A DNA stretch of 62,913 bases, from the NCBI GenBank assembly GCA_020631045.1, contig JAHDHZ010000007.1, positions 1 to 62,913 on the forward strand, given 5' to 3'. The stretch's first letter is position 1, and each line of letters opens with the position of its first letter. The translations under genes and the position numbers were made by a program. The notes beneath the pieces are model-generated. The model searched no databases. It was not told where the DNA came from and was given only the letters and a program-made list of their open reading frames with translations. Origin of the DNA: Flavobacteriales bacterium (GTDB lineage: Bacteria; Bacteroidota; Bacteroidia; Flavobacteriales_G; JALEGO01). Positions 9,216-11,484 of this stretch are shown in pieces.

Positions 9216-10604
9216 ATGGGTGAACTTCTAGAACATATCGAGATTGAATCCTTTGCTGCAAAAGGCAAAGCACTTGCAAGATACGACGGAAAAGTCATTT
9301 TTGTCAAACAGGCTGTTGTAGGTGATGTGGTAGACATTAATATATACAGAAAGAAAAGAAAGTATTCTGAAGCAGAAATTGTTAAAATTCATAAATACTC
9401 AGACTTAAGAACCACTCCTTTTTGCGAGCACTTTGGCACTTGTGGTGGGTGTAAATGGCAAAATTTATCTTATTCGCATCAATTACAATTCAAACAAAAT
9501 GAAGTTGTTGAGAATATGAAGCGCATTGCCAAACAAAAAGAATTCAACATTCAACCAATTATTCCTTCTAAAAATCAACAGTTTTACAGAAATAAACTTG
9601 AGTACACTTTTTCTAACAAAGCCTGGGTTGATGACAAAGAACAATTCAAAGCTCAAGGAGCACAACAAAATGCTTTAGGTTTTCATGTTCCAGGGAGGTT
9701 CGATAAAGTATTAAGCATTGATAAGTGTTATTTACAAAATGATCTACAAAACAAGATTAGAAATTTTGTTGAAGACTACTGTAATGAGCATGACTATGCT
9801 TTTTATGACATTAGAAAGCATGAAGGATTGATGCGCAATTTGATCTTAAAAAGTACCCAAGATGGTCAATGGATGGTGATTTTAATTTTTGCTCAAAATC
9901 AACAAACCAAAATCACAGAACTTTTAGATGCTTTAAAACAAACATTTTCTGAAATTTCATCACTTTATTTTGCCATAAACACAAAACTAAACGACAGTAC
10001 TTTTGATTTGCATATGCAACATTACTGTGGAAGTAAAATCATCACAGAAAAACTGAAAGAGTATACTTACCAAATTGGCCCTAAATCTTTTTTTCAGGTT
10101 AACATTGAGCAAACTGTTGCGTTATATGACAAAATCATTGAGTTTGCTGCATTTAAAAAATCTGATCTGGTCTATGATTTATATTGCGGTGCAGGAAGCA
10201 TAGGAATTTATATCTCTAAACTCGTTAAAAAGGTCATTGGTATTGAATATGTTGAAGAGGCTGTAAAAGATGCCAAAGAAAATAATCATTTAAACAAGGT
10301 TGAGAACCTTGAATATTTTGCTGGAGATATGCACAAAGTATTGACCAAAGAATTTATACAGCTAAATAGTCAAGCTGATGTCGTTATTTTAGATCCTCCC
10401 AGAGCTGGAATGCACCCTAAAGTGTGTCAAAGACTTCTTGAGATGAGTGTTGAAAAGATTGTTTACGTAAGCTGCAACTCTGCCACACAAGCTAGAGATA
10501 TTGAAATTTTATCTTCTAAATATAACCTTGTTGAAATTTGCCCCGTAGATATGTTTCCGCACACACATCATGTAGAAAATGTGGCACTTTTAACACTAAA
10601 GTGA
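9216..10604 (+). CDS. rlmD: 23S rRNA (uracil-5-)-methyltransferase, RlmD/RlmC (TrmA family)
   Basis: A 462-residue RNA m5U methyltransferase. N-terminal TRAM domain (~1-60), an Fe-S cluster region with 'CEHFGTCGGCKWQ' and a later 'DKCYL' Cys, then the SAM domain with 'FFQVNIEQTVALYD', 'VYDLYCGAGSIGIYI', 'DPPRAGMHP' and the nucleophile region 'YVSCNSATQARDI'. It methylates a uridine of 23S rRNA; RlmD versus RlmC specificity cannot be set from sequence alone. Start ATG 9216 is preferred over TTG 9204, which lies inside the -7 box. Divergent from rpsP and overlapping the next gene by 4 bases (GTGA). Confidence 0.88.
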   Translation: MGELLEHIEIESFAAKGKALARYDGKVIFVKQAVVGDVVDINIYRKKRKYSEAEIVKIHKYSDLRTTPFCEHFGTCGGCKWQNLSYSHQLQFKQNEVVENMKRIAKQKEFNIQPIIPSKNQQFYRNKLEYTFSNKAWVDDKEQFKAQGAQQNALGFHVPGRFDKVLSIDKCYLQNDLQNKIRNFVEDYCNEHDYAFYDIRKHEGLMRNLILKSTQDGQWMVILIFAQNQQTKITELLDALKQTFSEISSLYFAINTKLNDSTFDLHMQHYCGSKIITEKLKEYTYQIGPKSFFQVNIEQTVALYDKIIEFAAFKKSDLVYDLYCGAGSIGIYISKLVKKVIGIEYVEEAVKDAKENNHLNKVENLEYFAGDMHKVLTKEFIQLNSQADVVILDPPRAGMHPKVCQRLLEMSVEKIVYVSCNSATQARDIEILSSKYNLVEICPVDMFPHTHHVENVALLTLK

Positions 10605-11104
10605 GAGTTGAAAAACCATATCATCAAGCATTAAAAGCCTTTAGTGAGCTCAACCAGTTAAGCTACAAAGGGCCTATAACAGATGAATTCTTAACACCTT
10701 TATGGATTGTTAGTGAAGAGGTTTTTTTTAAAAATGCTTCTTCAAAAAAAGCGAAAAAACAACAACATATTCTTATTGAGCTTAGCCAAAACATCAATCA
10801 ACACAGCATCAATAAACAAGGTGAAATTGACATTGAATTCAATGAAAAAAAGCAAGCTACTATTTGTTGCTTTAATAAAATATCGAATGATCAAATTGTG
10901 GAGCTAAAACATCATTTACAAGAACTTTCTCAAGCCAGTCAAATAGGACTCACAAAATTATACATAAAGGGCTTGTCTAAAAAAATGACAAAAAAAACAG
11001 CTGGCTTAGGCCTCATTCAAGTATTCAAGTACGCAGAAAAAATTCAATATGATTTTATTGAAAAAAACGGACAATATTTTTATCTTTTAAAGGCTATTTT
11101 ATAA
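10601..11104 (+). CDS. SiaB-like GHKL-fold protein kinase (DUF6272)
   Basis: A 167-residue protein that resembles SiaB, the kinase of the Pseudomonas SiaABCD pathway. A GHKL-type ATPase fold is suggested by the N-box 'HILIELSQNINQHS' and the ATP-lid segment 'KKTAGLGLIQVFKYA'. SiaB phosphorylates the small acceptor SiaC, which here is the next gene, only 2 bases downstream; the adjacency strengthens the call. The GTG at 10601 overlaps the rlmD stop as GTGA and is preferred to the much earlier in-frame ATG within rlmD. No receiver or sensor domain is attached. Confidence 0.72.
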   Translation: MRVEKPYHQALKAFSELNQLSYKGPITDEFLTPLWIVSEEVFFKNASSKKAKKQQHILIELSQNINQHSINKQGEIDIEFNEKKQATICCFNKISNDQIVELKHHLQELSQASQIGLTKLYIKGLSKKMTKKTAGLGLIQVFKYAEKIQYDFIEKNGQYFYLLKAIL

Positions 11105-11106
11105 AC

Positions 11107-11484
11107 ATGGAACCACTTATCATAAAAGCAACAGAATATACACCAGAAATTACTTTAGACAAAGAGGCTGCTTTATTTGAATTCAAAGGCAACTCTTTAC
11201 CAGAAAATGCTGTGAATTTCTTTGCTCCAGTTATTGAATGGTTTGAAGATTACAAAGAAAAGCCTCTAGAAAAAACAGAAGTCGTTTTTAATCTTGGTTA
11301 CATCAATTCTTCTTCTTCAAAAAAAATTATGGAAGTTTTAGAAGAACTAGAAGAAATCATGGATGAAAAAAAGGTACAAATCAATGTTTTCTGGAGATAT
11401 GAAGAAGATGATGAAGTAAATGAAGATACAGGAAAGGCCTTTCAAGAAATTACTTCTATTCCTTTTAAATTAGAGGTTTACTAA
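11107..11484 (+). CDS. SiaC family regulatory phosphoprotein (DUF1987)
   Basis: A 125-residue acidic protein. The opening 'TEYTPEITLDKEAALFEFKGNS', quoted here in part as residues 9-30, and 'FNLGYINSSSSKKI' (residues 61-74) are characteristic of SiaC/DUF1987, a STAS-like fold that toggles between SiaB kinase and PP2C phosphatase SiaA, and in Pseudomonas activates the diguanylate cyclase SiaD when unphosphorylated. Residue 68, where I recall the phospho-Thr of P. aeruginosa SiaC, is Ser here. No siaA or siaD lies within the window. Last gene of the rlmD-siaB-siaC run. Confidence 0.8.
   Translation: MEPLIIKATEYTPEITLDKEAALFEFKGNSLPENAVNFFAPVIEWFEDYKEKPLEKTEVVFNLGYINSSSSKKIMEVLEELEEIMDEKKVQINVFWRYEEDDEVNEDTGKAFQEITSIPFKLEVY

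Follow-up and report, generated by a model that had tools for sequence, protein, structure and literature searches.

What can a SiaB kinase and a SiaC phosphoacceptor control in a genome that has no diguanylate cyclase of the kind on which SiaC acts in Pseudomonas aeruginosa? The question is raised by two adjacent genes in a contig of a Flavobacteriales bacterium (GCA_020631045.1, contig JAHDHZ010000007.1, positions 1 to 62,913, forward strand; here C10), whose 62,913 nucleotides are the window analyzed. A sequence-only reading had taken the genes for siaB and siaC, pointing to the absence of SiaA and SiaD nearby, a GTGA overlap with an rRNA methyltransferase gene, and a serine at residue 68 of SiaC, and had concluded that the pair must have another output or one specified by genes at a different site. 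In the literature surveyed, the output of SiaC is known in one organism only, and a literature search, judged at the level of its listing, returned no publication dealing with SiaC in Bacteroidia or with a link between SiaC and a transporter.

The genome carrying the window (G000) comprises 2.34 Mb in 86 contigs and is 98.6% complete. Scanning GTDB contigs for close relatives of the window SiaC yielded only three loci, and whole-genome searches were therefore used instead. These covered 60 relatives and 197 genomes of the class Bacteroidia, 25 of which had been examined earlier. A survey of siaC neighborhoods supplied 106 SiaC and 68 SiaB open reading frames (ORFs) from the loci fetched.

The siaB-siaC pair and its phosphosite

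Table 1. Features of the siaB-siaC locus, in window coordinates
Feature	Position	Strand	Basis or remark
23S rRNA/tRNA (uracil-5)-methyltransferase-like gene, 466 aa	9204..10604	+	ORF; Pfam TRAM and tRNA_U5-meth_tr
siaB-like protein kinase gene, 167 aa	10601..11104	+	DUF6272; GTG start overlaps methyltransferase TGA
siaC-like phosphoacceptor gene, 125 aa	11107..11484	+	PF09345; PDB SiaC match; model
SiaB motif E60..Q63 N64..H68	10778..10804	+	Glu aligned with presumed catalytic Glu61 of P. aeruginosa SiaB
SiaB glycine loop T133-A-G-L-G	10997..11011	+	Family consensus GGxGLG; GG lost
Codon of Ser68	11308..11310	+	Aligned with phospho-Thr68 of P. aeruginosa SiaC

The identity proposed for the pair held in profile searches, both products scoring above the curated Pfam cutoffs: the SiaC-like protein matched PF09345 (E value, 1.8e-34; 118.4 bits versus a cutoff of 24.5; profile positions 1 to 118 of 120) and the SiaB-like protein matched PF19788 (DUF6272; E value, 2.5e-17; 63.3 versus 26.6 bits). 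Scores against the NCBIfam models were below the cutoffs, at 87.6 versus 150 bits for the SiaC equivalog NF038265 and 66.4 versus 85 bits for the SiaB family kinase NF038262. When solved structures were searched, the window SiaC matched P. aeruginosa SiaC (6kko/6k4f; E value, 2e-14), and its AlphaFold model (pLDDT 88.9) reached a TM score of about 0.90 to 6kko, 6kkp, and 7e6g. The window SiaB alone had no significant match in the solved structures. A family profile of 32 SiaB sequences (A2), in which the window protein is one row, matched the SiaB chain of the P. aeruginosa SiaB-SiaC complex (6kko_A; E value, 8e-33). An AlphaFold model built for the window SiaB from 2 sequences had a pLDDT of 52 and was left out of the fold search.

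Phosphorylation of P. aeruginosa SiaC takes place on Thr68, within LLYLNTSSIK (PMC7647112). The alignment set Ser68 of the window protein against this residue, keeping a hydroxyl acceptor in the context N67-S68-S69-S70-S71-K72 (NSSSSKK), and in the model Ser68 is the first residue of helix alpha-2 (residues 68 to 88). Serine can act as a phosphoacceptor, as it does in SpoIIAA. The run of four serines noted earlier is present (S68 to S71), but as a special feature Ser68 did not stand up: of the 106 SiaC ORFs, 64 have Thr in the residue-68 column, 38 have Ser, and the remaining 4 have some other residue, and Ser68 is therefore a common variant within the SiaC family. Within the own genome, one of the five SiaC proteins has Thr at this position and four have Ser.

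The surface that meets the effector is less well kept. P. aeruginosa SiaC contacts the SiaD stalk with helices alpha-2 and alpha-3 through D79, R103, L107, E110, and D114 and the T68 segment (PMC8457831). At the five named positions the window protein carries E79, V103, T107, A110, and I114, retaining none of the P. aeruginosa residues. Across Bacteroidia SiaC sequences, the segment from about residue 65 to 70 was conserved, R103 was mostly replaced by Asp, and D114 was mostly replaced by Ile, Leu, or Met. By these alignments, SiaC proteins of the class have retained the switch segment, and their effector face is altered.

In SiaB, E60 and N64 were invariant in the 32 sequences of A2, and the motif Glu was present in 67 of the 68 SiaB ORFs. 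The window protein keeps E60, N64, and H68, with the loop KTAGLG in place of GGxGLG; the GG pair is missing in 13 of the 68 ORFs, and the corresponding loop of P. aeruginosa SiaB is SGAGLG. Identity to the only close orthologue, in G001 of the same genus (its contig also serves as locus L006), was 33% for SiaB and 74% for SiaC, so that the kinase is evolving much faster than the acceptor. Phylogenetic trees grouped the window proteins at strong support with the G001 orthologue only (0.998 for SiaC and 0.997 for SiaB), and none of the loci read outside the genus carried the pair. The pair is thus a paralogue at the level of the genus, and its kinase has diverged.

In several genomes, siaC is preceded by double SiaB (DUF6272) proteins, either tandem or fused, of approximately 290 to 430 aa (L007, L126, L133, L151, L116, and L122).

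SiaB, SiaC, and SpoIIE proteins in the genome and in Bacteroidia

Profile searches across the own genome identified five SiaC, five SiaB-family (DUF6272), and ten SpoIIE/PP2C proteins, most of the last being long enough to accommodate sensor regions. GGDEF domains were absent from this genome in a search that was positive in 8 of 14 control genomes, so the output of the window pair cannot be a GGDEF-type diguanylate cyclase of the SiaD kind. C10 itself gave no match to either SpoIIE or GGDEF, in agreement with the reported lack of SiaA and SiaD nearby, and neither a phosphatase nor a transporter gene adjoins the pair, which is flanked by the methyltransferase gene and a convergent receptor-like gene. 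The prediction of a different or distant output is likewise supported by the gene content, since GGDEF proteins are missing and all ten SpoIIE proteins are encoded away from C10, one of them directly upstream of another siaB. A complete siaABCD set elsewhere, which the sequence-only reading had named as evidence that would count against it, was encountered in part: four more SiaC and four more SiaB proteins are encoded, including a probable siaA-siaB-siaC arrangement, and siaD is absent.

That arrangement was reconstructed from two contigs. C35 ends in siaB, directly after a gene for a 1,071-aa Reg_prop/Y_Y_Y/SpoIIE protein, and C56 ends in siaC. The counterparts of these SpoIIE, siaB, and siaC genes lie side by side, in intact order, in both G001 and G002 (domains were examined in the G001 protein), and C35 and C56 therefore probably represent one SpoIIE-siaB-siaC operon split by assembly. 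On a further contig, C83, two successive pairs (siaB-siaC-siaB-siaC) precede an FtsE-like ATPase gene that overlaps the second siaC. On C60 (L028:6236-9850), a siaB without siaC follows the gene for a 1,031-aa protein that has SprB repeats and a C-terminal domain of the type IX secretion system (T9SS), and C73 has a lone siaC.

Two of these arrangements recur in other genomes. A second siaB-siaC pair overlapping an FtsE-like cell-division ATPase gene was observed in four genomes of the family (L024:5003-7592, which is C83 of G000, L065, L069, and L090), which could reflect a possible SiaB/SiaC switch on FtsE. A lone siaC beside OmpH-like and DUF4924 genes was seen in two families (L026:7344-8993, which is C73 of G000, L068, L096, and L101). 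The SiaC proteins of L096 and L101 have Ile at the Thr68 position, and for this reason may be phosphorylation free.

Among the 60 relatives, SiaC was found in 44 and SiaB in 45; 43 genomes had both, 1 had SiaC alone, 2 had SiaB alone, and 14 had neither. Of the 43 genomes with both proteins, 42 encoded two or more SpoIIE proteins, compared with 1 of the 14 that lack both (Fisher P = 8e-11), and the SiaC count correlated with the SpoIIE count across the 60 relatives (Spearman, 0.89), both figures being uncorrected for relatedness. One of the 60 genomes encodes as many as 47 SpoIIE proteins. GGDEF proteins were rare, occurring in 2 of the 60 relatives and in 3 of the 197 class genomes, of which only G123 has SiaC, versus SiaC in 115 of the 197. 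SiaC in Bacteroidia therefore appears to work largely without a GGDEF partner.

A transporter linked to siaC

A protein of approximately 1,030 aa, with a TerB-like start followed by an ABC ATPase and an ABC2 membrane domain, was a recurrent neighbor of siaC. The TerB match (E value, 3e-4), found in one of two transporter proteins scanned, was below the Pfam cutoff. At seven loci (L103, L124, L178, L177, L126, L176, and L086) the gene order was SpoIIE-siaB-siaC-transporter, placing the transporter in the position that siaD occupies in the Pseudomonas operon. In a second arrangement, siaC is followed by a gene of approximately 280 aa and then the transporter gene; at L171:4359-5462 and L172:3640-4773 this intervening protein is replaced by one of approximately 370 aa with a C-terminal SiaC domain of its own. 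In a third, the transporter gene is convergent to siaB-siaC. Searches of Pfam gave no usable name for the ~280-aa gene, nor did Pfam and NCBIfam for two genes adjoining the transporter gene, of ~300 and ~150 aa. The transporter was not alone in recurring next to siaC, which counts against the link: SpoIIE proteins, an S46 peptidase, and a ~245-aa gene did so too.

The genomic distribution of the transporter was examined with a profile (A1) of nine rows, taken from copies beside or near siaC in eight genomes; as a result, it favors the siaC-adjacent transporter subfamily. A threshold of E ≤ 1e-69 was read off the table for the 60 relatives and fixed before the 197 class genomes were searched. 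Of these, 90 had both SiaC and the transporter, 25 had SiaC only, none had the transporter only, and 82 had neither. In the 172 genomes outside the threshold setting, the corresponding counts were 74, 23, 0, and 75 (Fisher P = 1.7e-28, with no phylogenetic correction). Against the link, nine of the 115 SiaC genomes had no transporter match at E ≤ 1e-3, and 16 more had only matches weaker than E 1e-69. Conversely, five of the 197 genomes gave weak matches although they lack SiaC, and a lower-scoring transporter paralogue is retained in several Flavobacteriales among the 60 relatives that are likewise without SiaC.

Physical linkage was counted among the 133 transporter matches kept after excluding those weaker than E 1e-28, and among the SiaC matches listed, to which five rows (four from G000 and one from G054) were added, making all counts lower bounds. 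At least 42 of the 133 matches lay within 6 kb of siaC, in at least 40 genomes and at least 21 families, 15 of the 21 families having no representative in A1. Convergent orientation accounted for at least 26, siaC followed by the transporter for at least 15, and divergent orientation for at least 1. For 37 linked pairs, restricted to transporter ORFs of at least 400 aa within three ORFs of siaC, the SiaC and transporter distance matrices correlated at 0.80, versus a maximum of 0.30 in 2,000 permutations. Arrangement types largely clustered on both trees, including those of the genomes with two types, G015 (L078, L103), G060 (L165, L166), and G088 (L167, L168). Shared ancestry inflates each of these counts and correlations and partly accounts for the co-occurrence and for the congruence of the trees. 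The transporter is the best candidate for the effector of SiaC in this class, as a likely replacement for SiaD.

The own genome encodes two transporters of this architecture. One, on C73, belongs to the operon-type clade; it lies downstream of the lone siaC at a distance of 2.3 kb, and the two genes that separate them are on the opposite strand. The other, on C32, belongs to the convergent-type clade.

Proposed switch, its alternatives, and known systems

Taken as one of several paralogous partner switches, the window pair probably operates with SpoIIE phosphatases acting in trans and with a non-GGDEF effector, for which the transporter is the best candidate in the class. By homology to P. aeruginosa, the SiaB-type Ser/Thr kinase would phosphorylate SiaC at Ser68, and one or more of the ten SpoIIE/PP2C phosphatases would strip the phosphate on a signal. 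Unphosphorylated SiaC would then bind an effector other than a diguanylate cyclase of the SiaD kind, and in the class at large SiaC may gate the ~1,030-aa transporter. Because no transporter adjoins the window pair, its own effector can only be proposed. A broader proposal, made tentatively and with slightly less than even confidence, is that throughout Bacteroidia the SiaA-SiaB-SiaC system has been rewired, with an ABC exporter taking the place of the diguanylate cyclase. SiaC, unphosphorylated or phosphorylated, would dock on the TerB-like N-terminal domain and gate export, with many SpoIIE sensor phosphatases feeding the gate, and the window pair would supply an input, specific to its lineage, to this module or to a sister of it.

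The most serious competitor, though a doubtful one, has the window SiaC acting on another partner, such as an unlinked regulator or the FtsE-like ATPase. The second siaC of C83 overlaps the gene for this ATPase in an order also kept in G001, G002, and G003, but the window SiaC stands apart from that SiaC in the tree and its pair has quite different neighbors, the methyltransferase and receptor-like genes. It is less probable still that the pair is a degenerating duplicate, in which a kinase losing its activity leaves SiaC only to buffer or cross talk with the other SiaB/SiaC switches. The lost GG, the low identity of SiaB to its G001 orthologue, the subthreshold NCBIfam scores of both proteins, and the restriction to one genus among the loci read are what such decay could produce. 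Both frames are intact, however, gene order is kept in two genomes of the genus, the better conserved SiaC retains N67-S68-S69-S70, the kinase retains its E60, N64, and H68, and a loop without GG is shared with P. aeruginosa SiaB and other family members.

Two further explanations appear highly improbable. A c-di-GMP output as in Pseudomonas would require a diguanylate cyclase either missed in a draft assembly or too divergent for the profile. The assembly is fragmented and slightly incomplete, and three SiaC-bearing relatives (G007, G034, and G123) do have GGDEF proteins; yet G001 as well as the own genome has none, such proteins are scarce in a class where SiaC is common, and the SiaD-touching residues of SiaC are not kept. 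Equally remote is a role for the switch in a response to ribosomal RNA modification, suggested by the overlapping stop and start codons. The overlap itself was confirmed, whereas the coupling read into it was not: in G001, the sole close orthologue, the 106 bases upstream of siaB, which reach the contig end, contain no methyltransferase gene end, and the methyltransferase had no cluster mate among the siaB/siaC neighbors compared. The overlap is therefore probably incidental and the methyltransferase-like gene probably lies outside the switch.

If SiaC does act on an exporter without c-di-GMP, the SiaC family would be a general phosphoswitch whose effectors can be exchanged, and there would be a testable target for the SpoIIE phosphatases that are so expanded in Bacteroidia; the SpoIIE-siaB-siaC-transporter operons are ready test cases.

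The SiaABCD system of P. aeruginosa (PMC7647112, PMC8457831, PMC7278518) shares with the window the SiaB-SiaC gene order, the SiaC fold, and a phosphoacceptor at the start of helix alpha-2. A kinase motif with Glu and Asn is common to both, and PP2C phosphatases are encoded elsewhere in the genome of the window. Unlike that system, the window has Ser rather than Thr at residue 68, lacks the SiaD-contact residues, and has an altered kinase glycine loop, with no SiaA adjoining the pair and no GGDEF protein in its genome. The slr1658 and slr1659 regulator superfamilies of NCBIfam are more distant, the window SiaB scoring 24.7 bits against the former and a C83 SiaC 19.5 bits against the latter, far from the cutoffs of 100 bits. 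In the SpoIIAB/SpoIIAA/SpoIIE and RsbW/RsbV/RsbU partner switches, as in SiaB/SiaC, a small acceptor is combined with a GHKL-type kinase and a PP2C phosphatase. SiaC has been likened to an anti-sigma factor antagonist (PMC7647112). In contrast to the proteins of these partner switches, SiaB and SiaC constitute separate Pfam families of their own.
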